From Bolinopsis microptera (taxonomy: Eukaryota > Ctenophora > Tentaculata > Lobata > Bolinopsidae): a DNA stretch of 64,000 nt. A program made the position numbers and the translations under genes. The notes under the pieces were generated by a model, which did not search any database, was not told the DNA's origin, and saw only the letters and a program-made list of their open reading frames with translations. The stretch covers positions 11,080,303-11,144,302 of the forward strand of contig NC_087075.1 in NCBI RefSeq assembly GCF_026151205.1, given 5' to 3'. Shown here one piece after another: positions 1,647 to 62,780 of the stretch; the first letter of the stretch is position 1; each line of letters opens with the position of its first letter.

Positions 1647-4600
1647 GCGACTGCCACGATCAGTATACCTAAAGAGCACCACAAGAACATCATTGGCAAG
1701 AACAGGTCCAAGATAGAGCAGATCCAGAAGGAAACCGGAACTCAAATCACTATTCCACCTCAGGTATTGAAACTAGCTGTTTTAAATTTACACTTAATTG
1801 AAAAGTTCGGTACGACCCATAAAAAGCATAGATGGAGGGGCCGCAGACTCAGGGGGCACGGTCTGCGCAATCTTCTAGGAGAACTGTAAAGCTGGACTTT
1901 CCGAGGGGTTTCTGTACATTCAAGGCTTTTTAGGGTAAATGAGGCGTGGTACCTAGCCTATCACAAGCAATGCGATAGATTACACTAAAACTTTACTGCC
2001 CGGAAAGACCTAATATAGGTGTAGGTCGTTACATATCGGCCATCGGGTCATGTTATCTAGATGTTGATGTTGGCTGAAAAGAAACATAGCTAAACAATAG
2101 CTAAACATAGCTAATCAGATAACTGAGTATCTTATATTTGCAGTTTCCACAAGATTTTCATTCAGTTAAATTTTAACTGAATTTCATAATCTGATATTTA
2201 TGATAATGAGTAGATAATGAAATGGGATCGTCTTTATTAATTAGATTTGAACAGTTGTTGAAATCTGATATCGAATTACATTTTCTCAGAATAAACTAGA
2301 TTACAACTTGTGTAACAAAGTTAATCAATTTCTTGGCTGTTATTTTAAATGCCTAAGACACGTATCCTTGATAAAATTCCAAACAAGATAAGATGTGTAT
2401 TCATTATTACAAACTGCTGATGGATATCTCATGTCAAGATAACGAAATAAATTGCGACAATATCTGTCACTCTCATAATAGAACCGATGTTGGAATTGTT
2501 TGAAAAATTCATGCTCTAAACTATATGACCAGACCCTGGTCACAGGTAATAATACTTATTGATGTAACAAATCACGTGACGAAATCAAATAATCCAGGGT
2601 AAGAATGACGACAACATCAAGGTGGAGGGAAGCAAGGAGGGTATTGAGAAAGCCATGTTCGATCTCAGGAGAATCAGTGATGATCAGGTAATTTAGATTA
2701 ATCAGTTGTCTTACTATTTCGTTATTTTATGTATTACTATTAGATAAAAGAATTTTATCGCGCTAAAAGGGATACGTGGTTGACAATGTCGTCTGGTGGA
2801 GAGGTAACCGGACATTTGGGAGAACTGCAAAGAGGGGGCGTTTTTGCGATTTTAGATGGTCCACGAAGTTACGTGAGTTCGCTGGAAGCCTTTAAATATG
2901 ACGAAACAAAAGTCCCAACCAGGGGTAATATCATGAACTGCTAAACTAATAACAACATCTTGCGCGGCTCTTAACATTTAATTAGGGCCAGCAGCACCTG
3001 CGTTCTCTGTGACCGCACCCTCGTTATTAGCTATTCATTGCTCAATAACTAAGCAGACGTTGTGTGTGGACCAGTACGTGGGATTAAAGCACGACACTTG
3101 GAATTGGTGACGTTCGTAAGTTCACCGTATATCTGATTAGGACCTGCTAGAACTGGATTCTGTGTAATCCTGTTATCTTAACATCACACACATTCCTAAC
3201 ATAATATAACATGTTTGTGACAGACATACTGGGAAATGTAACGTGTTTGTTATTTTTACCACCTTTTACATTCTTATCTTTGCGCATAATGCACAATTCA
3301 CAATGCTCGGACTAAAATAGGAGGCTGCACATGATGTGCTCTCGAGAAAAGTAAGGGTTAGAGTTCCAGTTTCAAGTACACACTAAAAGTCATGTGTGTA
3401 GGTCCAATGTGAAAATGTCTTCTCAATTTTCCTTTCCTTACCAAAATGTTACCGTGCATTTCATCACCTTCTGGTTTTTCTTAATAAACGTGGGTAAAAG
3501 TGGCGAGGTGGTGCACGTACGTTTTGCCTCGTTACCAATTAACTGATCAATTTGCAGTATTGATCAATCAAATCCCATTATTGATGTCAAAACAGACGTT
3601 ACCACCTACCCATTACTAGCCACGTTTATTTGTAACAGTTGCAGTTGGAAGTGCAACATTTTGTACATGTAATATGTGCATATTATGCACCCGTAAATGA
3701 TAGATGTTATTGTGTGGTATTCTCAACCATCACACTATACTTCCTGCTGGTTTAACACCGGGAAAATAGCATTGTAGCTACTCACTGTGATAGTTGCGTG
3801 AGGTGTGACGTCACGTGAGGGAGTGTGTGACGTCACATGAGGGAGAGTGTAAATGTAAGATGAAAGATCCACGCTAGACGGTGCGTGATGGTCGTTACTC
3901 TGGTATAAATGTCTACAAAGTTGCTGTCTGGCGTGATGAGTCCCTTCTACACTGTGTGGTTTTGATCCAGTGTCTGTTTCTAATGTTTACTTTACATTGG
4001 GCATACCACAGGTGGGCCCTTAGACACATCAGTATTTCTTACCTACAAAACCAAACTTTTATTTAAGTTCGGTGTACTCTATTTCCTGTAATACAGTATG
4101 TTTATTGTGTATGGTAAAGTGTATCTTGAGCACATCATCAGTAGATAATGGTATTTTGGTATTGAAGTGATTGTACTGAGTACATATAAAAAACTTTGAA
4201 ATCTAAACGGAGCTAAATGGAGATTTTAAGCAAATAAAAAACTTTCCATTTCAAGTTTCTCATTACTTCTACTTAAAATTCTCAAAACCGACATTGTTTC
4301 TAACCTTTTAATTTGCATCATTGAAGTTTGAGTAGTAAGGCAGCGTTCTCGGTAGGGAGGGGCGTCGACTTATACATTTCACAACTTCATAAGCGGAAGT
4401 TGGGAAATATTGTGCAAGATGTTTTGTGACGTGCTTTTATTGAATTGCGACCTATTTATACGTGATCTATTTATATTAGCAGCAATCTCTATCATATGTT
4501 CTAAGTGAGAGCTTTAAGTGACAAAAGATTTGGATCTATTGTTCTCTTGGAGAGAGAGAGAGAGAGAGAGAGCACAACAGATTTGAAACGTCATACTTTG

Positions 4601-7600
4601 AAACAGCTTCTATTAAACCTGGCCTATTCTTAAAAATACAGTATTCAATGCATCATTAGAGTTAATGCTTTAATTTCTTTCGCTCACATATCAATGGTTT
4701 AGCCATACAATAGAGCGGTATACCTACTCAGTTAAAGATGAAAACTCTGTAAACGACGAAAACTGAGTATATGACGAAAATAATTCTACTTAACTTTCTT
4801 AATTCCTTCCAGAAACCACTCAAAACGAGATACACTTAATATTATCACGCACAATGATCGATCGTCATGCAAGTATTAAAAAGAATCTGACGTTTTGTTT
4901 TGATCCCACGTCAGCAATATTTGCTGCAGAGCCACGTGATGTGTTACGTGACGTAACGAACTGACTGCACGATAAAGTGAACTTTGCGGCACGCGCGGCG
5001 ACATTTCTCCACTGAAAACCCAACTCCTTTCACTCTCTTTTATTAACGTCGGCAATGCCACGCGCGTATAAATCCCGCGTTTGTAGAATTTACGACTCAA
5101 ATAGTTAGTTTCGCAAGTTAAAACTTAAAATTTTCCAGTTCGCGAGACATAGAGAGTCTGTGGTCCTTGCCAGGAAGTTTTACCCCTGGATTAAGGGAGG
5201 CAGAAAGAACAACAAACTTGAAGAACTCCAGAAAGAAACAGGCTGCCGAATCAACGTACCACCTTACCAAGTAAGTCTGGATCAGTAGCTTAAATAACCA
5301 TCGCTCAATGCTATATTTGATTACGAGAACTCATGTGGACTAGTGGTAATCTATCCTACTAACCAATACCCACCAGGCAGAGAACGAGGAGATCATAGTT
5401 ACTGGAGAGAAAGAAAAGGTTATCGCATGTATTGACATGTTACAGAGAAGATGCAGGGATATGGAGGAAAACTTCTCTCACATCCAAGTTGAGATCAGAC
5501 AAACCCAGCACATGTACATCAAACGTGGCAACGGTTAGTTTCTAATGTTATTTTTTGTTGTTATGAATTCGCAACGAAGTGGACGATTTTTGTTAATTTT
5601 TTTCAAGCTTTCATCGCCAAAATTACGTGTCATTTAAAATTTTGGAACGAAACCTTCAATGCAGTTGCTACCTCATTTTATCTTTCTGAGAAATGTTTTT
5701 TACCAACAGTAATCTGCCTTCAGGTATTCAAGATATATTCGACAAGACAAATGTGTGGGTAGAGATTCCAAATGACGGCTCCCAGACAATCAAACTGTAC
5801 GGTCTAGAAGATTCTCTTTCCCCAGCCCTGTCTTTGTTGTTTGAAAAAGCTAACTCCATCAAAACATGTGACGTGGAATGTCCGGCCTGGTTGCTCAAAT
5901 ACGTTATCGGGAAGAATGTAAGTGCTGGAATGTTTCCAAGTTATGTGGGCGCCTGGCTATACCGTCGAGGGGAGATTTTTAGCCTAGTTGTTTGATAATA
6001 TCCAATACAATTTTTTTATAAAATCGAGTTGGTCATTTTCTGCGATCTGTGTAATTCTTATTAACGATTTTTTTACTAAATCAGGGTGAAAATATTCGAT
6101 CGCTCTCTGAGAAATTCCCCAAAACAACAATCAACTGCCAAAGCGAGAAGAACATCATAACTATAGACGCACCCGGAGAAGAGTACGACGCAGCTCGAGA
6201 AGAGATCACAAAACTTGTGGATGAGCTGATCCTGACCCGTTCCAGAGCTGTCATTAAGATCGACCATAAGATACACAAACATCTGATCGGTAAAGCTGGA
6301 TCTAATATCAACAAGATTAAATCTGATACCGGAGTCAACATCAAGATACCTCAAGAGGAAGGCCAGGAGATTGAGGTATGTTAATATTTTATCAGTTCCC
6401 CTTTATCTAAGCTTGTATAATGTATATCGGTTATATATTTACTTCCTTACTCAGGGACCCTCCACATATTACGTAAGCTAAATTTTTGACATTCTATACC
6501 CCTCCTCCTTCTACATATAACTATTGTGTAGAAATTACAGCAAGCTTTTTCAAACCTCCTCTCCTAGACTGGGCTAATATGTAAACGATCCCTTATGGCA
6601 ATCCCCGATAGAATTGAATTGTTATTACATAATGCTAAATTTAGTATAACGCACGTATTGATGTACAGAATATTATACTTACACGTTACCCCTCCCCAGA
6701 TCGTGGGGCCACCTGAAGGAGTTGCTAAGGCACGTGAAATGCTGCTGGAACAAGCGAAGAGAATTGCAAACGAAGCAAGTGTTGAGCTGGTTATCGAACA
6801 GAAATGGCACAGACTACTGATCGGAACTAAGGGAGAAAGTATTCAGAAGATCCGAGTCAAGTTCCCTGAAGTTCAGGTAAAGAATTTGGAATCTGTTTCC
6901 ACTATTCGTAGCTGAGATAATAGAATAGTGTAATCTTCTAGCTCTGGTAATATTCTACAAAGGACTAAACCAGTGGCACAATATGGTTACAATACTGGTA
7001 ATGCTATGTAAGATGTAATCAGTGTTGATAAGAATCTCCGTATACCCTTCACCAGGTTCAAATACCAGGTTAACATAATATTTACCAGGTTAACATAATA
7101 TTTACCAGGTTAACATAATATTTACCAGGTTAACATAATATTTACCAGGTTAACATAATATTTACCAGGTTAACATAACATTTACCAGGTTAACATAATA
7201 TTTACCAGGTTAACATAATATTTACCAGGTTAACATAATATTTACCAGGTTTCCTTCCCCACCGCCTCCTCCAAATCTCCGGAATGTGATAAGGTGTCCC
7301 TACGCGGGCCCAAGAAAGACGTGGAAGCAGTTTCCAGTATGTTGAAGGGTCAGCTGAGTGTGATTGTGGATGAGAACTTTACTATGAAGGTGCCGATCTT
7401 GAAGAACCATCACCGGTACATTATTGGCAAAGGAGGAGTGAACATCAGGAAGTAAGTTGTTGTTTTATGTGGTTGTTAGTGGTTGTTAGTGGTTGTTAGT
7501 GGTTGTTAGTGGTAGTTAGTGGTAGTTAGTTAACTGTTTGGGGACTGTGTACCTACCAACGCCACGTGTAGTGATAATAATATAAGGCTAGTCAAAGAAT

Positions 7601-15817: not shown

Positions 15818-15857
15818 TATAATGGCGCAGGAGGGTCAACCTGAAAAGAACATTGCT

Positions 15858-16074
15858 TGACCCTCCTGCCCCACCGCATGGATCAGGAGGTTCATTTCAG
15901 AAACAGTGCTTGACCCTCCTGCCCCACCACATGGATCAGGAGGTTCATTTCAGAAAAAACAGTGCTTGACCCTCCTGCCCCACCACATGGATTACGGGGG
16001 TCACCCACAAAAACAGTGCTTGACCCTCCTGCCCCACCACATGGATTACGGGGGTCACCCACAAGACCATGTGC
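15858..16074. repeat. Subterminal tandem repeats, left end of palindrome
   Basis: Four units starting TGACCCTCCTGCCCCACC at 15858, 15911, 15967 and 16021 (spacing 53-56 bp). The two inner units carry TTACGGGGGTCACCCACA where the outer two carry ATCAGGAGGTTCATTTCAGA. A 12-bp inverted repeat (GCAGGAGGGTCA 15827-15838 with TGACCCTCCTGC 15858-15869) forms a hairpin at the very tip. Mirrored at 32100-32316. Confidence 0.93.
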
Positions 16075-16262
16075 GCTGCACTTATTTCTACATCGCGCGC
16101 GATACGTGTGTGCGTGATTACATGAAATATTACCGCGCCCTACGCCAAGTAGACGAAAAGCGTGGTCGAAGAGCGAGAGTCGGTACAATAAATAAAACGA
16201 GAGTTGGTACATTTAACTGGCATTTTTTAACCGTGGTACAATCAGAATTGAATACAGCCGAC

Positions 16263-16570
16263 ACAGGATGAGGGGGGGGGGGGGGGGCAATGACTACTGA
16301 TGGAGACTTTTGAGCACCAATGGGGACGAAAATCATAGGGACTGAAGGTCAAATCGCTGGTGAAATTTTCCATTTGTCCCCATAAGTACCCAAAGTTTTG
16401 GCGAGTTTTATGTAGTTTTGATATTATCTTTTATTAAATGACTTCTAAAGGAGACTTTTGGGTACCAATGGGGGCTAAAAATCTTGGAGACTTGAGGTTA
16501 AATTGCTGGCGAAATTCTGCACTTGTCCCCAAAGTACCCAAAGTCATTGGCTCCCCCCCCCCCTCCCCCG
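16263..16570. repeat. Diverged tandem duplication bounded by G/C tracts
   Basis: Two related segments (about 16288-16410 and 16437-16545) share GGAGACTTTTGRGYACCAAT, GCTGGYGAAATT and GTCCCCA...GTACCCAAAG. They sit between a G tract (16271-16287) and a C tract (16553-16562). Mirrored at 31604-31911. Non-coding. Confidence 0.8.
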
Positions 16571-31064: not shown

Positions 31065-32099
31065 GTAAGCAAATTCAAATATTTTGACAGTTCATACTGC
31101 GGTTATACATTGCAGCCAATGCGCAGCAAACAAGAGCTTGCCACTGCTATAAGCATTCGTATTCGTAGCTTGTTTGAATCTCAAATTTATTCGAATTATC
31201 ATAAGTAGCCGGAAGCCCGTCCTGCGGACGGAGTTCTTCAGCACAAAATCGATTCTCAAACATTTTAAATCTACCCTTTCTCATTTCTACTTCTTTTCCT
31301 TTCACAATTTTCATGTTTTTAAAAAACTTCTTACCCCTATCCATGTCACCTATGATTCATGCATTTCTAGCTTCTCGGACAGTGCTGTCTTTTCCCTCAT
31401 TGGCAAATCCTGAAAGTTTTATGAAAAATATAGATCAGAGTTATGTTTGTTCTGCACGTCTGCATTTCAGGTATTCGTGACACAGTTTACGTGTGATGAC
31501 GTGGGCATCTCTCAACACACTTTGCAGCATGAGCGACGGTGCCGTGGCGGGATATCTGGAAATGTAGCCTTGAGCTCAGTTTATTTTTCTCCGTCACCTC
31601 ACCCGGGGGAGGGGGGGGGGGAGCCAATGACTTTGGGTACTTTGGGGACAAGTGCAGAATTTCGCCAGCAATTTAACCTCAAGTCTCCAAGATTTTTAGC
31701 CCCCATTGGTACCCAAAAGTCTCCTTTAGAAGTCATTTAATAAAAGATAATATCAAAACTACATAAAACTCGCCAAAACTTTGGGTACTTATGGGGACAA
31801 ATGGAAAATTTCACCAGCGATTTGACCTTCAGTCCCTATGATTTTCGTCCCCATTGGTGCTCAAAAGTCTCCATCAGTAGTCATTGCCCCCCCCCCCCCC
31901 CCTCATCCTGTGTCGGCTGTATTCAATTCTGATTGTACCACGGTTAAAAAATGCCAGTTAAATGTACCAACTCTCGTTTTATTTATTGTACCGACTCTCG
32001 CTCTTCGACCACGCTTTTCGTCTACTTGGCGTAGGGCGCGGTAATATTTCATGTAATCACGCACACACGTATCGCGCGCGATGTAGAAATAAGTGCAGC

Positions 32100-32316
32100 G
32101 CACATGGTCTTGTGGGTGACCCCCGTAATCCATGTGGTGGGGCAGGAGGGTCAAGCACTGTTTTTGTGGGTGACCCCCGTAATCCATGTGGTGGGGCAGG
32201 AGGGTCAAGCACTGTTTTTTCTGAAATGAACCTCCTGATCCATGTGGTGGGGCAGGAGGGTCAAGCACTGTTTCTGAAATGAACCTCCTGATCCATGCGG
32301 TGGGGCAGGAGGGTCA
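32100..32316. repeat. Subterminal tandem repeats, right end of palindrome
   Basis: Reverse complement of the left-end array: four copies of GGTGGGGCAGGAGGGTCA. The arm ends at 32356 with GCGCCATTATA. Confidence 0.93.
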
Positions 32317-32356
32317 AGCAATGTTCTTTTCAGGTTGACCCTCCTGCGCCATTATA

Positions 32357-49700: not shown

Positions 49701-52700
49701 CTGTAATTACGCACGTGCACAAATAAGCACCACTGTGTCTATTCTGATCTAACTGTGTGTTCAGGCTACAATTCACGAGAACGAATGTAGGGATCTGAAG
49801 GATGACCTGAAGAAGGCTCAAGATGAGCTCCAGGACGCTGAATGTCTGGGGAACAAGGTCTCACGTGATAACAAGGTGAGTTGTGATTGGCTGAGACAAT
49901 CTCTAAAACTCTTCCAATTGGCTGAGACACGCTCTTAACCTCCAGTCGTTGACCATTGAAATTATAATTCTGAAGATTGGTTGAGAGATGTAATTCTCGT
50001 ACAGGGAAAGTTCTCAATTAGTACAAACACAATTCTACAACTGTCTGTGTTTCAGTTTGCCTGCAGCTTTCCTCTGAATTATATTCACATAACTTAGTAT
50101 ATTATCTCTCCAGTTTGATTTCTTAGCTGTGATTTAATGTTTCGTTATGCTCAAATGGTTGCAGTACTTTATACTCACCATGATTAAACCTTCATTTAGA
50201 TAAAATAAAGCTATCTGATTGATTTGTTAACTATAACCCTGATATTCCCCTAGTCCCTGACTGACATATTACAATCTCTTGACTATAACCCTGATATTCC
50301 CCTAGTCCCTGACTTAAAGTTTACAACCTCTTGACTATAACCCTGATATTCCCCTAGTCCCTGACTGAAAGATTACAATCCCTTAACTATAACCCTGATA
50401 TTCCCCTAGTCCCTGACTGAAATATTACAATCTCTTGACTATAACCCTGATATTCCCCTAGTCCCTGACTGAAAGATTACAATCCCTTAACTATAACCCT
50501 GATATTCCCCTAGTCCCTGACTGAAATATTACAACCTTTTAACTATAACCCTGATATTCCCCTAGTCCCTGACTGAAAGATTACAATCTCTTAACTATAA
50601 CCCTGATATTCCCCTAGTCCCTGACTGAAAGATTACAACCTCTTAACTATAACCCTGATATTTCCCTAGTCCCTGACTGACATATTGCAATCTCTTGACT
50701 ATAACCCTGATATTCCCCTAGTCCCTGACTGACATATTACAATCCCTTGACTATAACCCTGATATTCCCCTAATCACTGACTGAAAGTTTACAATCTCTT
50801 AACTATAATCCTGATATTCCCCTAGTCCCTGACTGAAATATTACAACCTCTTAACTATAACCCTGATATTCTCCTAGTCCCTGACTGAAATATTACAACC
50901 TCTTGACTATAACCCTGATATTTCCCTAGTCCCTGACTGAAATATTACAACCTCTTGACTATAACCCTGATATTTCCCTAGTCCCTGACTGACATATTAC
51001 AATCTCTTAACTATAACCCTGATATTCCCCTAGTCCCTGACTGAAAGTTTACAACCTCTTAACTATAACCCTGATATTCCCCTAGTCCCTGACTGAAATA
51101 TTACAACCTCTTAAATATAACCCTGACATTCCCCTAGTCGCTGACTGAAATATTACAACCTCTTGACTATAACCCTGATATTCCCCTAGTCCCTGACTGA
51201 AAGTTTACAATCTCTTAACTATAACCCTGATATTCCCCTAGTCCCTGACTGAAAGTTTACAATCTCTTAACTATAACCCTGATATTCCCCTAGTCCCTGA
51301 CTGAAATATTACAACCTCTTAACTATAACCCTGATATTCCCCTAGTCCCTGACTGAAAGATAACAACCTCTTAAATATAACCCTGACATTCCCCTAGTCG
51401 CTGACTGAAATATTACAACCTCTTGACTATAACCCTGATATTCCCCTAGTCCCTGACTGAAAGTTTACAATCTCTTAACTATAACCCTGATATTCCCCTA
51501 GTCCCTGACTGAAATATTACAACCTCTTAACTATAACCCTGATATTCTCCTAGTCCCTGACTGAAAGTTTACAACCTCTTAACTATAACCCTGATATTCC
51601 CCTAGTCCCTGACTGAAATATTACAATCTCTTAACTATAACCCTGATATTCCCCTAGTCCCTGACTGAAAGATTACAATCTCTTGACTATAACCCTGATA
51701 TTCCCCTAGTCCCTGACTGAAAGATTACAATCTCTTAACTATAACCCTGATATTCCCCTAGTCCCTGACTGAAAGTTTACAATCTCTTAACTATAACCCT
51801 GATATTCCCCTAATCACTGACTGAAAGATTACAACCTCTTAACTATAACCCTGATATTCTCCTAGTCCCTGACTGAAAGTTTACAACCTCTTAACTATAA
51901 CCCTGATATTCCCCTAGTCCCTGACTGAAATATTACAATCTCTTAACTATAACCCTGATATTCCCCTAGTCCCTGACTGAAAGATTACAATCTCTTGACT
52001 ATAACCCTGATATTCCCCTAGTCCCTGACTGAAAGTTTACAATCTCTTAACTATAACCCTGATATTCCCCTAGTCCCTGACTGAAAGATTACAATCTCTT
52101 GACTATAATCCTGATATTCCCCTAGTCCCTGACTGACATATTACAATCTCTTGACTATAACCCTGATATTCCCCTAGTCCCTGACTGAAAGATTACAATC
52201 TCTTAAATATAGCCCTGATATTCCCCTAGTCCCTGACTGAAAGTTTACAACCTCTTAACTATAACCCTGATATTCCCCTAGTCCCTGACTGAAAGTTTAC
52301 AACCTCTTAACTATAACCCTGATATTCTCCTAGTCCCTGACTGAAAGATTACAATCTCTTAACTATAACCCTGATATTCCCCTAGTCCCTGACTGACATA
52401 TTACAATCTCTTAACTATAACCCTGATATTCTCCTAGTCCCTGACTGAAAGATTACAATCTCTTAACTATAACCCTGATATTCCCCTAGTCCCTGACTGA
52501 AAGTTTACAACCTCTTAACTATAACCCTGATATTCCCCTAATCCCTGACTGAAAGATTACAATCTCTTAACTATAACCCTGATATTCCCCTAGTCCCTGA
52601 CTGAACGATTACAATCTCTTAACTATAACCCTGATATTCCCCTAGTCCCTGACTGAAATATTACAATCTCTTGACTATAACCCTGATATTCCCCTAGTCC

Positions 52701-55700
52701 CTGACTGAACGATTACAATCTCTTAACTATAACCCTGATATTCCCCTAGTCCCTGACTGAACGATTACAATCTCTTAACTATAACCCTGATATTCCCCTA
52801 GTCCCTGACTGAAAGTTTACAATCTCTTAACTATAACCCTGATATTCCCCTAGTCCCTGACTGAACGATTACAATCTCTGGAGAAGGAAAAGTCAGGATA
52901 CCGGGACCAGCTGGACTGTGCTCGGGGCAGCATGCAGTGAGTATTACCTTAATTACATAGTTACCCCTACCAATCACCCAATTACCTGACTCAGGAGCCA
53001 TGTATCTTCTTAGTCTGAGCCCTGAGCCCTATTGTCAGGACCACTTCCGGGAGGGACTGGTTGTTTCGCTGAGCACTGTGTACTACCAATTGGGATATAA
53101 CCTTGTTTCAAGTATCAAGGTGCATGACGTATTTAAGGGTATTGGTATTTAAAGGTAATATTTATGTCTACTCGATGGTAATGATTGGTGACATTGGGTC
53201 TGTTAGGCAGCAACCAGGACTCAATACCGGGGTCTGATACCGGGACCAGGACCGGGACCAGGTATTATCATCACAAAATAGTCAGTCTCCGGGAAGCCAT
53301 CTGGAACTTCTACCATCAGGTCCAATAATAAGAGAGGGGGGGGAGAGGGGGGGGGGGGGAGAGGGGGAGAGAGGGGGGAGGGAGGAGGGGGAGAGGGGGG
53401 AGTGTAATATATCATGTAATTGTGTAGAATATCAATGTGAACCGTAAAGCGTTCTTCAGTTCAAAGTTTACTGTTAAATTAGTGAATTTTAGTTAAAGAT
53501 GGCTTCATATCAGTTTCCAGTACAATGCTTGTTTTACAGTACATTAGAAGAATCACGCAGAGAACTACAAGCACAGTTAGATGACCTTGAACAACGTAAA
53601 AATGAAGCTCTCCACCAAAACCAGCTGTTGGAGAGGGAAATTAACGGACTCAAGGTAAAACAGTGCCTTTTTTAATATCATTCTATTCATTCGGCTAACA
53701 AAGAGGTACCCAATTATTAAATTAGTTTAATTAGCTTATTCTTTGAAAATGTAAGTAAAAATAATAATGTAATCAGGGAAAGTTAATTGAAGACGAGGAT
53801 GAACTAAACGAAATGAGAAAGATGAAAGACTCCGCTAACGGAGAAATAGATAGTCTCCTTACCAAGTGAGATTATTATCTTTAACTGAGTCAAGTAGACA
53901 ACATATTTAATGAATAATTTGTTTAATTAGTAATTATTGATATGATAATCAATATCACAATGATGTCGACTTAATCAAGTGTAGTCGTTTTTCGTCAAGT
54001 ATACCCCTTTCTCATGTCAGCAGTCGTGATAATTGGGGGAAAAGAAAATGTCAGTTGCTTTGTGATTTAATCCACCCGTTACTATGATTTAAGGTACGAT
54101 ATGCTAAAGAAACACAAGGAACAAGTGGAGTCAGAAAAACACAGTCTAGAAAGACAGGTGAGACTTTTGAGGGTTTCTACTTATTTTATTTTACTATTAT
54201 GTTATATCGTACACTGATTATATCGTACACTGATTATATTGTACTGTAATTTTATTGGAACTAATTTATTGGGACTCTAATTTCATGAGGTTTTGTATTT
54301 TGATTTCGTCTACCAAACTATAACATAACATAATAAACTAGTCTCATTAACTAGTTTATCTGTAAACATACTCTAATTCCTTCAGCTGAAAGATATAGCA
54401 GAAGAAAAAGCAGTGTTACAGTCCAGACAAGAAAGTATTCACCAAACTTTAGAGCAAAGCGAGAAAGAAAAGAATGATCTTCAGGCGAATGTGTCCAAGC
54501 TTCAGAAGACATGTCAAAGCACCCAGGTTAGATTCTCTAAAATTATAAAACTTTAAGATACTCTTAAAACAGCACGACACTCGAATTTGTCTTCAACATC
54601 ACTTTAGTGTTCAGTGTGTATTTGAAGTTTATCATCTTGCAAGACTGTTCATGAAAAACAATTTGTACTACCCAAATTTCCCAACGTCAACAATCGTAGC
54701 TCACTCCACGGATTGATAATGTGGACTAGGTTTGAACTAATACATTTAAATACATAACTTAACATGTTCCAGGACAAGATAGAATCGTTGGAGAACACAC
54801 TCAGTAGTTTGGAGAAGAAAGTAAAGTCATACAAAGAGGAGAACAGCGAGATGAAAACTAAAATATCATCTTCAAACACGGAGGCTAGCAACTTGTGAGT
54901 TTGTAAACTGTATAACAATATGTGAATTATTAGGTGTGTTTCTAGCTGTATTGTGAATATAGTTGCGCTGTTTTTGTGGCGCAACACTCATAAAACATTT
55001 TTATTCCTTACTGAGTGTCCTTTTCTGGTCTGCATTGGATCGTGTTAGTCACACAAACTTTCAGGTCAATACAAGATGGTCTTTACTTTCATAAGAAACT
55101 GTAAGTTCAGGTATCACATACTGTAATGCTGTAATACTTCCAGTATTACTTACTTTTAACTAACTCCAAAAACATTCCAGACGCCGGGACAAAGATTTGC
55201 TGGAAGAAAAAATCAACAACATGATAGGCGATACACAGGCAGTGTCTCACAAATTGATAGATCAACAAGATAAGATAACAAAGCTACAGACTGCGGCTAC
55301 TGACAACGAAATGTCTAGAATCAAAGCTGAAGGTATTTCACATTTGTTCATTATTTAACTTTTTAAATTTAAGTCTTGTCCAATGTGACTCGTGTTTGAT
55401 TTCTCGTTGAATTCACTTAAAGAAAATGCTCAACTGCTCCAACTTTCAGGTCAAATAAGGTCAGCTAATCTAGCTCTACAACAAAAGTCAAGCGAGCTCC
55501 GGACCCAGAGTAACAAAGTAGAACTGTTGACAACAGAGAGTAAACACCTTCAAGGAACATTGTCCAACCTGACTGGCAAGGTACACAGTTTATGTTTACC
55601 TTACTATTCTATTAAGTTTACCTTAGTCCTTACTCTTCTTTTAGATTACGTATATATTACATAACGTATATTACATAACCTACAACTTCTCTCATATAAC

Positions 55701-58700
55701 TACTTCTCTCATATTGACGATATGAATTAACAAATTGTAGGCAACAGAAGAAGGAATCTCTAACTCACTAATTCAGGTGAATCAACTGGAACGAGAAAAA
55801 CGGGAGCTTAACGAACATGTGCTCTCCTTACAAACGGAGAAGAAGTTGAATCAACAGAGCCGAGCTAGTCTTGAGAAACAAATATCCTCCATGCAGGTAT
55901 TTTCTATTTTCTATTTTCAGCTCACCCTTTTTGATTTAGGCTTTAGAACCGTTCTGAAATGGTTAGTACCTGACACTTGTGTTAGTTGCTAACCATATGG
56001 GCGGTATACAGCCACATTATTTCATTTCAGGTATACAATAAACCCGTGAGCTCGAGTAGTAGGAGCTGTTGAGTAACGTCCTTGCGCCGATCGTGAAACA
56101 TAGTAATTGCTTACTAATTAACTAATGATGTAATCATTACAGGAAGCATTGAAGGAGAGAGAAGAGTCAGTGAGGAACTATGAAGAAAAGATGAACAGTA
56201 CTGAGATGCAGTCTGAGAAGAACAAACGAGAGTTAAAGAAACTGGAGTATTTACTGGGAGAAACAGAGGTCGGCTCAAAAGACAGGTAAAGGGAGGAACT
56301 TACTATTATCATAGTCATTTATTATAGTTTTAATTTCGATAAATTTAAATTGAAGTTGATGCAGCTTTGTTAAATTTGGAAAAAACCTTGTCATTAAATG
56401 TGTGTTGTGTATGTTTGACTGCAATTTGTTTGACAATCAGTGGAACAATTAGTGGAACTTAGCAGGCTTGAAAAGACTATGTTTGTAACATATTTCAGCT
56501 ATCAGCCGTTACTCACTGCACTGTTTGCTGCACTGTGTGCTGCACTGTTTGTTGCACTGTTTGCCATCATCGCTGACTTCTTTTTCCCCTAACAGATCCC
56601 CTATAAGCGGACTGATAGGGGCAAATATTATAACATCAAATGAACATGATATCACTCCAACTAGGACGTATCCTTCACAAAACTAATTTTCTAAGAGTGT
56701 TTGAGAGCGTGTTTTTCTAAAACTTTTAAAATCACAAGCAAGCTGATTAGTCATTCACGACTTTCGAACTGTACATAACATTCTATGTTGTGATGTATTT
56801 CAGGGATTTTCTTAATGTACACAGCTATAAGTAGTGGTGCCTATTTGGCATCTTCTGATATACAAGGCATATTTCCAACAGTACCTACATCTTGACATAA
56901 ACAGGATCCGGGCTAGATTTATTCTGGTTTATATTCGGCAAATTGCATTATTCTTCCGACATTACAATTTTAGCGGACCGTTTAGGCCATTAGATGGAGC
57001 AAGCCTGCACTAAGGATCCAACTTCTATTTCCCCAATAGTTGATCCTTTTGCGCATCACATGCCATGCACATGGACCAATCAAATCCTTGTTTTCAATGA
57101 CCTTCCAGGATGTTGCTCTTAAGTGATTAAAGTATAGTAACCCCCGTAAAGTTACCATGACAACTGTCCCCCCAAATCCAGGCTACATAGAGTTGAAGAA
57201 AAATACAAGTCAGAATTGGAACGAGGACATAAACTCATCCTAGATAAAGATAAGATTATAGCACTCGAACAAGAGCGAAGTGAGGGACTCAGGAAAAAAA
57301 TAAACGAGCTTCAAGATCAGGTTCGTCATGGCTGCTTTGTCCTAGATCCTTTTGTTTTAACTGATTATGGTACAGACCAATTATAGAATTATGAGGCTTT
57401 CGAGTAGGTAAAGGGGAGCACCAGGAAATGCTTGTAATTCAACACGCGCGCAAACGCGCACACTGAATCATAAAACTACGATAAAAGAAGGTTATCGTAA
57501 GCGTCATCATAAGACGCGCGCTTTAAATTAGTTCAAATATTCTCAATTACACGCTCGCGATGCAATAATGACAGTCAACTGTCAATGAAATTGAATACAG
57601 GCGAAATTGAAAAGTTTTTACTAATTGCTTATAAACCTTAATGTTTTTGAATGGAGTAATAGTTTTAGGGTTAATAAATATATAAAAATTCCTCCATTCA
57701 ATAACATCTCCAATTTAATCCCACAGATTGCTACATTGAGTGTCACGATACATCGCCAAGAAGCCACTAAAAAGTCATATCAAGACAGAATAGAGAATAA
57801 AACCGCGGAGAACAAGGATTTACGGAGCCTCTTAAATGAAACTTACAATCTACAGGTCTCAAGCCCCAAGTCAAAGTGCTATCAGCTCTTAAGAAGTCAT
57901 TTTTTTACAAAGTGTCATCGTGTATATTAGGACCGAAACATCAGTATATATTTTCTATATCTATTTTATTCCTAATCCATGTTTAATATAACTTATTTTT
58001 AATTGATTTACCAATTACATGCTGAAGTTTGGTTCCATAACACTGAAAATACGTTTCAGGAGGATCCAACAAGATTATCTTATAATGAAACTCCAGAACG
58101 GCTTGCTACTAGATCTCCTGAATTAAAAGCTAGGTAAGAGATGTTATTCGATGTATGGGGTTTATTTCATGAAGAGTTAAAGGTGCATACCAAGGATAAG
58201 TAGGGGTATAGTAAAACTTGGGCATGCTTTTGTTCCCTCAATTATAATAAATAACAACAGATACTTCGTATCTAATCGTCTACCAATGTTACGAATGGCG
58301 CACGTGGTCGGGACTACTATATACTATATACCACCAATAAATAGTAAAGTAACATGTCTCCAGATCACCGGACCGTAGTGCATTAAGTCCGGAACGGACC
58401 AGCAGCTACCGGACATCTCCTATCAGACGAAGGAGATCCATTTCACCGGTCCGGAGATCTAACTACGACTCCTCTACTCCTGTCAGGAGACGGACTTCCC
58501 CTGTTAGGTCCGCAAGTAATTGTTGTTATTTATTTTCTTTTTGTTCTATTTGTTCTGTTTATCGGTTTTGTATTGTTTAACATCGAAACTTGGTTGGTGA
58601 GTTAGCAATTAATGTTATACTAGAGTACTAGTGGTAATGGATCAGGTAAAATTAAGGAACTGATAAAATATTCACAGTTTTTAGGTCAAATACACAAACT

Positions 58701-59421
58701 AACCAATCAGAGCACACTATTCACGCCACGCGACACAAACTAACCAATCAGAACACAGTATTTTCACCATGTGACACAAACCAACCAATCATAGCACAGT
58801 ATTAACACCACATGACTGTTTCAGATACCGATCACCCACTAGACACACATCTCCGTCACCGAGTAGAACCTGGAGATTTAAGGACTCCCCGTATAAGTAA
58901 GTTATCTTGTAGTTAACTGCAAGATATATAGTTTTATAGTATCTGGGTTTGATTAATCACAGTATCACACATATTATTCCGTGTATTTAAGTTTGCTCAG
59001 TTTTAGAATATAATAATCTAATCCTAAGTTGATTGAATTGATGTAACTATATGTTAAATAATAATCATTTTTTTAGGAAAATTAATAAAACCATTTTTGA
59101 TATTCCAAATTTATTGAGCCCAAAGTGTTGGCGCACAAGTTTTCGGAACTAAGGTATATAATTAACACTTCAAACACCCACAGACCGAGTACTCTGAGCG
59201 AGGATGTAAAGAAAGATCTGTCAAACATAACGGAGCGAACTGAGGACAGGTCCTCGTCCAGCCACCACAGCGACCACGGCAAACCAGCCAATCAGGAACG
59301 AGAACACGGGTCACGACACATGCACTCCACCAGTCAGGAAGTAGGAAGTGGCCTGGATGTGGACAATAAAGAGCTGAAGTGTTTACGGTGCAGGTCGCCC
59401 ATAGGGCTGACTTTAGCGTAG
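43721..59421 (+). CDS. CROCC: Rootletin-like ciliary rootlet coiled-coil protein
   Basis: Rootletin forms the fibres of the ciliary rootlet and links centrioles (family knowledge). 26 exons join in one frame to 3183 nt (1060 residues). Nearly all is heptad-type coiled coil rich in E/K/Q/L (e.g. KRRLEQEVTKQKLL, LEREKRELNEHVLSLQTEKK). A non-helical break midway, GKLSHLISMLHATLPG and then an S/T/P-rich stretch ending VDVESVRQAILALKKQ, matches the rootletin layout of a short hydrophobic block, a linker and a V-R-x-A-x-x-x-L re-entry into coiled coil. The C-terminus is an R/S/P-rich tail (YRTSPIRRRRSISP) and ends LKCLRCRSPIGLTLA. Animal rootletins are about 2000 residues, so this is roughly the C-terminal half, or a short form. 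The start ATG 43721 follows an in-frame TGA at 43694-43696, unless an acceptor at 43706 joins an upstream exon. CROCC2-like is possible. Confidence 0.78.
44021..44317. repeat. 297-bp near-perfect palindrome
   Basis: Arms of about 145 bp (starting CCTTAACTTGAGAAGACTG, ending CAGTCTTCTCAAGTTAAGG) pair with three mismatches around a loop of about 5 nt centred at 44169. It is transcribed in rootletin intron 1, so it would form a long double-stranded RNA hairpin. Confidence 0.95.
44803..45092. mobile_element. 290-bp non-autonomous hAT element with perfect 8-bp TSD
   Basis: Ends CAGTGGCGTAACG and CGTTACGCCACTG are exact inverted repeats. Flanking 8-mers ATTGTAAT (44795-44802 and 45093-45100) are identical: the 8-bp duplication of the hAT superfamily. 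The interior has GGCGCCCCC-rich patches and no ORF. It is nested inside the TTAA-ended element, so it inserted later. Confidence 0.93.
46545..46672. repeat. (TTAATTAG)n array after rootletin exon 4
   Basis: About 15 copies of the 8-bp unit GTTAATTA with few interruptions, starting about 25 bp after the exon 4 donor. Confidence 0.93.
46673..48256. other. Rest of rootletin intron 4
   Basis: AT-rich; no exon that fits the phase-2 junctions on both sides, no recognisable element. Confidence 0.5.
50227..52880 (+). repeat. 52-bp minisatellite of 3' splice sites, 51 units, rootletin intron 10/exon 11
   Basis: Unit: intronic TTAACTATAACCCTGATATT then CCCCTAG, followed by exon-like TCCCTGACTGAAAGATTACA then ATCTC. 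The first TAG|TCC junction is at 50253/50254 and the last, real one at 52853/52854: exactly 2600 bp, 50 steps of 52. The last unit is the functional acceptor plus the first 27 nt of exon 11 (SLTERLQSL). Every other unit repeats branch-point-like TTAAC/TATAAC, pyrimidine tract, AG and exon start. Variation is only by substitution (GAAATATTA, GACATATTA, GAAAGTTTA). Confidence 0.97.
53336..53401. repeat. Polypurine G/GA tract in rootletin intron 11
   Basis: About 65 nt of GAGAGGGGGG-type sequence, strand-asymmetric, capable of triplex or G-quadruplex structure. The antisense proline-rich frame here is an artefact of the tract. Confidence 0.9.
58692..58814 (+). repeat. 41-bp x3 tandem repeat abutting rootletin exon 25 acceptor
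   Basis: Units start at 58692, 58733 and 58774 with ACACAAACTAACCAATCAG. Each has a branch-point-like CTAAC/CCAAC and a CCAAT box. The last unit ends directly before GACTGTTTCAG, the exon 25 acceptor. Confidence 0.9.
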
Positions 59422-62285: not shown

Positions 62286-62780
62286 ACTAATTCGCTCGCC
62301 CAAAAATTTCGCGAGACTTTGGTTTTTATGGTTTGGCAGCCGTACAAAACGGTTTTACATAAACCCTAATCCCAACCATAACCCCGAAGCTAACCACAAC
62401 GGCTCTTTCTAAATCGCTCGCCCAAAAATTTCACGTGACTTTGGTTTTTTTGGTTTTGCAGCCGCGTACAAAACGGTTTTACATAAACCCTAATCCCAAC
62501 CCTAACCCTAACCATAACCCTGAAGCTATCCATAATCTTAACCACAACCCTAACCCTAACCCGAGCCCTAAATAATCGAATTCACGTTTTACTAGCCTGT
62601 CACGTGACCAAAACGGTTTTTTGCCCATAACTCTCCAGGGAAGCATTTTAACCCTACGTCATGGGGGTGATTCGGAATCAGCGTTCAAAAATACACCGAT
62701 CTAGATCACTTTCATGCCTAAACTTAAAAGGCCTTTTCACAAGAATTTTCTTAAAATTTGGGCGAGCGATTCAGTAAGAG
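62286..62780. mobile_element. Inverted-repeat element with CGCTCGCCCAAA ends
   Basis: Left end TTACTAATTCGCTCGCCCAA (62286) and right end TTGGGCGAGCGATTCAGTAA (62760-62779) are inverted. An extra internal start TCGCTCGCCCAAAAATTTC at 62414 shows a partial tandem duplication. No ORF. A related 3' part recurs at 63385-63616. Confidence 0.65.
62362..62577. repeat. Degenerate telomere-like CCCTAA repeats
   Basis: AACCCTAACCCTAACC-type hexamers interrupted by CCATAA and TCTTAA variants. It is part of the inverted-repeat element, and AACCCTAACCCGAGCCCTAA recurs with it near 63389. Confidence 0.75.

Follow-up and report, generated by a model that had tools for sequence, protein, structure and literature searches.

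A 52-bp minisatellite copied from a 3' splice site in Bolinopsis microptera, and further splice-boundary arrays in the same genome

Tandem arrays lying across intron/exon boundaries have been described in amphioxus as "mirages", with splicing reportedly undisturbed in the accessible text of the two papers concerned (PMC3087553, PMC3902484). The cases given there include Adh3 (units of 10-72 bp) and the globins BflGb6 (at an acceptor) and BflGb9 (at the 3' end of an exon); the second paper adds a mirage in PGBD5 and cites TnC, and the first proposes boundary arrays as raw material for new introns. Tandem repeats of human segmental duplications average 30 bp and 4 copies, and those at an exon-intron boundary may, from the part of the article available, give new introns and alternative transcripts (PMC2812944). 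The polyubiquitin gene UBC is described, in the accessible portion of its report, as containing tandem dual-specific splice sites chosen stochastically (PMC10809524), and the splicing-linked minisatellites of Caenorhabditis elegans appear in the available text as intronic motifs, not copied boundaries (PMC4039745). Here we analyse a stretch of 64,000 nucleotides of the ctenophore Bolinopsis microptera (assembly GCF_026151205.1, contig NC_087075.1, positions 11,080,303 to 11,144,302, forward strand; hereafter the window), in which the 3' splice site of one exon of a coiled-coil-like gene has become a minisatellite of 51 units of 52 bp. Positions are those of the window unless a locus is named, and a slash within a motif marks the exon/intron junction.

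The 52-bp acceptor array and its host gene

Tandem Repeats Finder (TRF) describes the array as period 52, 51.0 copies, 93% matches, 0% indels and score 4564, far beyond chance. Its junctions, from 50254 to 52854, belong to 51 consecutive units at a step of exactly 52 bp (50 x 52 = 2600), and the register position just upstream of the first unit is unrelated (39/52 bases differ). A first, sequence-only reading of the window had counted 51 copies in strict 52-bp register free of net indels, and this count is confirmed. The features concerned are:

50227..52879, plus strand: minisatellite, 52 bp x 51 (TRF and register alignment)
50254..52802, plus strand: 50 decoy junctions upstream of the predicted working acceptor (47 TAG, 3 TAA), with a premature stop predicted from each
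49765..49875, plus strand: upstream exon of the coiled-coil gene, ending in phase 0, donor at 49876
52854..52936, plus strand: exon of 83 nt starting SLTERLQSLEKEKSGYRDQLDCARGSM, predicted acceptor in the last array copy, donor GTGAGT, frame fitting both neighbour exons
53540..53654, plus strand: downstream exon of the coiled-coil gene

In each unit, 25 nt of intron end (including CCCCTAG) precede 27 nt copied from the start of the next exon, in agreement with the initial view of a 3' splice site turned minisatellite. The copy of the 27 exonic nucleotides is present but not exact: base 27 is G in the true exon and T in the other 50 units, and the first 26 nt are matched exactly in three upstream units (52750, 52698, 52594), most of the others differing at base 13 or more. 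A branch-point-like TTAAC or TTGAC, a candidate branch point by likeness, straddles the unit border; its A at -24 is kept in 51/51 units and the following C in 48/51. The junction reads TAG in 48/51 units and TAA in the remaining three (junctions 52542, 51814, 50774), so that the 51 near-identical acceptors originally announced reduce to 48 AG acceptors and three dead copies. None of the GT contexts in the array (CTAGTCCCT, CTAGTCGCT, AAAGTTTAC) is donor-like by eye.

The units are similar without being uniform: 30/51 are distinct, mean pairwise identity is 0.937 (lowest 0.846) and the variants are scattered. The first unit shows two differences from the consensus, the second four, the last two and the remaining ones 0-5, to be compared with the homogenised inner units and diverged edge units by which mirages are recognised. 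A regular higher-order repeat was rejected: among 40 lags tried, mean identity was raised at lag 5 only (a value reached by 0/1000 shuffles), where just 2/46 unit pairs are identical, and the longest run of units occurring twice is three. The order of variants is non-periodic, the longest exact internal repeat being 208 bp. The last unit plus the exon DNA gave 50 matches in the 264.65-Mb assembly, all of them on C4 inside the array; both flanks are single-copy, and the assembly holds one copy of the locus.

Eight exons between 48258 and 53654 join as one open coiled-coil-like frame, including the three listed above, which are bordered by AG and GT; for the first exon of the series (from 48258), the left edge is placed one base off. 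Lengths of 83-179 nt were found for the 11 exons that could be placed in this gene. The name "rootletin exon 11", under which the 83-nt exon was first presented, was not confirmed. The sole match of Pfam Rootletin (PF15035) in the genome, in an exon-by-exon search that may miss weak matches, is at C4:8698797-8698928, 2.4 Mb from the window and below the cut-off (31.6 bits vs 36). The assembled partial protein matches general coiled-coil-type Pfam models only, all below cut-off, and its PDB matches are weak (best E 0.026, a myosin-9 chain).

The reading frame predicts a premature stop from all 50 upstream copies, at least 72 nt before the exon end in every case. The sequence-only reading had proposed about 20 codons and then TGA for any upstream copy, which applies to 44 of the 47 upstream TAG copies; the others stop after 3 (TAA), 5 (TAA) and 26 (TGA) codons. 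The exon being 83 nt long, skipping it shifts the frame, with a stop after 14 codons. As originally proposed, the last copy (52854) would thus be the only one of 51 to keep the frame of the coiled-coil gene and to give full-length protein.

Splice-boundary arrays elsewhere in the genome

Further splice-boundary arrays, at acceptors as well as donors, were found in the same genome, and this observation is new. One of them lies within the window, in a gene encoding a KH domain:

7063..7251, plus strand: acceptor array, 20 bp x 9.4, ten CCAG/GTT junctions from 7069 to 7249 (TRF)
7249..7451, plus strand: KH-domain exon (KH_1; vigilin-like, named by eye) starting at the last copy of the 20-bp array

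Joining the KH-gene exon pair at 7249 gives a KH_1 match (Pfam, E 6.5e-18) that spans the junction, and the nine upstream acceptors run into a stop in 9/9 cases, as read from this partial exon pair. The junctions of this array contain an AGGT core that could in principle serve as a donor too.

Exon searches in two families, with the myosin head and the kinesin model, added a sample of 30 loci per model. The sampled genes contain one acceptor array, with 7 copies, and several donor arrays, whose copy numbers are 2, 4, about 5, 22 and 50; in the arrays that were readable the expected protein comes from the exon-proximal copy only. Three of them are:

C12, about 14428371-14430116 (loci L047/L061), minus strand: kinesin donor array of 50 CTTG/GTAAGT, with the exon end INTSLSELG directly before it
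L044, 1735-2078, minus strand: kinesin acceptor array, 49 bp x 7, unit with the VFTPDTR codons
L015, 925-1052: donor array in a myosin locus, 31 bp x 4, GAGGG/GTAAGTGA

The C12 kinesin is the strongest case for the exon-proximal copy as the authentic one. Its donors are spaced 32-36 bp apart, with two gaps of 69; the first donor joined to the next exon gives 80/80 residues aligned to a solved kinesin across the junction (E 9.5e-29), and the other 49 donors meet a stop within the extension in 49/49 cases. Because the kinesin motor is conserved, the authentic copy can be identified here by protein conservation, which is impossible for the coiled-coil gene. In the acceptor array of L044, the six upstream acceptors run into a stop (6/6). 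The exon after the array matches Pfam Kinesin from residue 2 (E 1.3e-23) and solved kinesins from residue 5; since the repeat unit holds VFTPDTR and the conserved motor exon continues from it, the unit derives from the gene boundary. In L015, with VEKAAQFLSVNTEQLIESLTHNKREMR setting the frame, reading beyond the first donor leads to a stop; this exon piece gave no Pfam or PDB match and was assigned to myosin by eye. The further kinesin donor arrays are of 53 bp x 2, of 21 bp x about 5 (degenerate), and of 22 GTGAGG mostly 13 bp apart. In L055 (about 2400-2960, minus strand) the kinesin exon piece ASYLEIYQEEIR was seen twice, the upstream copy leading by eye into a 21-bp repeat. A 72-bp x 3 repeat in L006 was considered as an acceptor array and rejected, the other strand being by eye an open 24-residue coding-type repeat.

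The frequency of such arrays was estimated from 89 donor and 103 acceptor junctions (192 in all), which were called near match ends with a simple score and drawn from 115 of 182 matches (73 + 109), after 8 of the 123 entered had been dropped for short flank. A junction was taken as duplicated when at least 20/24 bases around it recurred no further than 250 nt away on its intron side. Three of the 192 junctions passed this strict test, of which L024 is doubtful owing to stops within its match; the control positions gave 5/192 at 60 nt into the intron, 4/192 at 100 nt into the intron and 0/192 at 40 nt into the exon. The junction rate is therefore about that of the introns, which argues against the idea that splice junctions attract arrays, and preferential birth at junctions was rejected for lack of enrichment. 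Not among these three strict cases are the arrays of L040, L053 and L015 and the one at the exon that lies upstream of L047, which were found by eye. An earlier scan (42/42 and 61/62 matches) had placed arrays close to the ends of matches in 8 and 17 rows, by eye mostly plain intronic repeats near the splice site. Minisatellites abound in the sampled myosin and kinesin loci (TRF). The simplest history is a high birth rate of minisatellites in non-coding DNA, from which splice junctions are not spared; the persistence of arrays of about 50 copies would imply that their cost is small.

Other repeats were noticed in the window. Open frames near 15.8-18.5 kb return on the other strand near 29.7-32.3 kb (for instance at about 15843-16271 and 31903-32331) and so form a large inverted repeat that may be a transposon. 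A 41-bp x 2.9 array (58692-58811) stops 13 nt short of TTTCAG, an apparent acceptor whose exon starts at 58825; the acceptor itself is outside the array. AACCCT repeats (62486-62571; 14 copies, 67% matches) are telomere-like yet lie inside a chromosome-size contig. A 22-bp array (CCAGGATTACGAAGATATAAGG) crosses the window start (1-400) and is also present in L062 (3292-3503).

Choice among the copies and rival explanations

We consider it probable that the 52-bp array is a mirage produced by tandem duplication of an intron/exon boundary, that its exon-proximal copy is the one used, and that it is nearly neutral in a minisatellite-prone genome. The boundary would first have been duplicated in tandem, and ordinary repeat turnover would then have extended the array into the intron. 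The body of the exon is unique, and consequently only the exon-proximal copy (the last acceptor, or the first donor) gives protein; the same design recurs at acceptors and donors of other genes, the working copy being the one with the shortest exon and the longest intron. The spliceosome would mostly pick this copy through exon definition, the pairing of sites across the exon, presumably with the aid of enhancers located in the unique exon body; transcripts spliced to decoys may be cleared by nonsense-mediated decay as a back-up. The array would have no dedicated function and be close to neutral. Exon definition is preferred because the needed copy is the last in acceptor arrays and the first in donor arrays: pairing across the intron would predict the wrong copy in both array types, and choice of the first-transcribed site would predict it in the acceptor arrays.

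Several points weigh against this explanation. Use of the acceptor at 52854 is deduced from the reading frame only. The upstream junctions are nearer to the donor of the preceding exon, and transcription reaches them earlier; intron definition or first-come kinetics would accordingly select a wrong copy. Decoy copies 1-3 would give exons of 135, 187 and 239 nt, compared with the 83-179 nt found in the gene; length alone therefore favours the exon-proximal copy weakly over these three, and some low-level use of decoys is likely. Among the 50 upstream units, diversity is lower in the intronic 25 nt than in the exonic 27 nt (0.045 vs 0.077) and, in a post hoc split, lower from -24 to -1 than in the rest (0.030 vs 0.089). 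This might hint at selection on the decoy acceptors, but the first contrast was not significant (position shuffling, p 0.17), and such selection was not accepted.

The array might instead be a regulatory poison device, in which the share of transcripts spliced to the 47 upstream acceptors and then destroyed sets the protein level, with copy number as the tuner. The premature stop from all 50 upstream copies, at least 72 nt before the exon end, and the AG kept in 47/50 of them would suit such a device, which we nevertheless regard as unlikely: short non-coding frames tend to stop early, three copies have lost the AG, and the decoys of other arrays stop too (KH gene 9/9; kinesins 49/49 and 6/6), so that the stops are no sign of design. 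The sequence gave no evidence for or against regulation. The proposal that the array is a special feature of one gene or a regulatory device was not upheld, as mirages are a described class and further arrays are present in unrelated genes of the same genome, which points to a tolerated habit of the genome and not to a special switch of the coiled-coil gene. Slightly less improbable, though still doubtful, is a passive load, that is, a slightly harmful array causing random transcript waste and kept solely by drift or rapid minisatellite turnover. The 30/51 distinct units, with no repeated run of more than three, fit ongoing local duplication and drift, and duplications arise in intron interiors at much the same rate as at junctions; against it, two genes carry arrays of 51 and 50 copies, which suggests a small cost. 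That the copy number was inflated or collapsed during assembly is very improbable. Tandem arrays are error-prone and the assembly represents a single haplotype, but the 30 variant combinations follow a non-periodic order with no exact internal repeat longer than 208 bp, the flanks are single-copy and similar arrays exist in unrelated genes. The existence of the 52-bp array is very likely, its exact length less so.

Beyond the mirage explanation of this locus, splice-boundary minisatellites, at donors and acceptors and some with about 50 copies, may be a lineage-wide trait in which the spliceosome reliably takes the exon-proximal copy, a generalisation that we hold tentatively and at somewhat less than even chances. 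Splice-site strength and position are normally confounded. If the generalisation is true, this genome is a natural saturation test of splice-site choice, with sequence strength constant and only position varying: dozens of sites are nearly the same in sequence, and the choice must therefore come from position and exon context. The contrast between acceptor arrays, which need the last copy, and donor arrays, which need the first, is one by which exon definition could be told apart from both intron definition and first-come choice.

Comparison with known systems

The human gene 6-16 (IFI6) reportedly contains a donor minisatellite, to judge from a title of 1995 (Nucleic Acids Res. 23, 1854); it is on the donor side, unlike the 52-bp acceptor array. 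The human boundary repeats resemble the array in having minisatellite-size units within genes, and differ in that they represent recent-paralogue variation, mainly within exons, and the available part of the article does not describe a boundary copied into dozens of equal sites (PMC2812944). UBC, in the accessible portion of its report, shares a splice signal in each tandem unit, but its repeats are coding monomers with AG/GT sites acting both as donor and acceptor (PMC10809524). The junction of the 52-bp array is TAG/TCC, with no GT there, and a dual-specific array of the UBC type was consequently rejected for it; the KH-gene array does have CCAG/GTT. A literature search, limited in depth and mostly without subscription papers, found no report of arrays with dozens of copied splice boundaries.

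The closest likeness is to the amphioxus mirages, with which, as far as the accessible text of their reports goes, the 52-bp array shares tandem duplication of the boundary, overlapping unit sizes and an authentic copy at the exon. Mirages keep AG or GT in many, not all, copies, and here 48/51 junctions are TAG and 3/51 TAA; their authentic copy is on the exon side with the rest in the intron, as the reading frame would place it here. Copy number is where they part, with 51 acceptors in this array and 50 donors in the C12 kinesin vs the 6 and 3 units given there for two BflGb6 haplotypes. The 52-bp array belongs to the known mirage class, in which it is unusually long and has more copies than the amphioxus globin cases.

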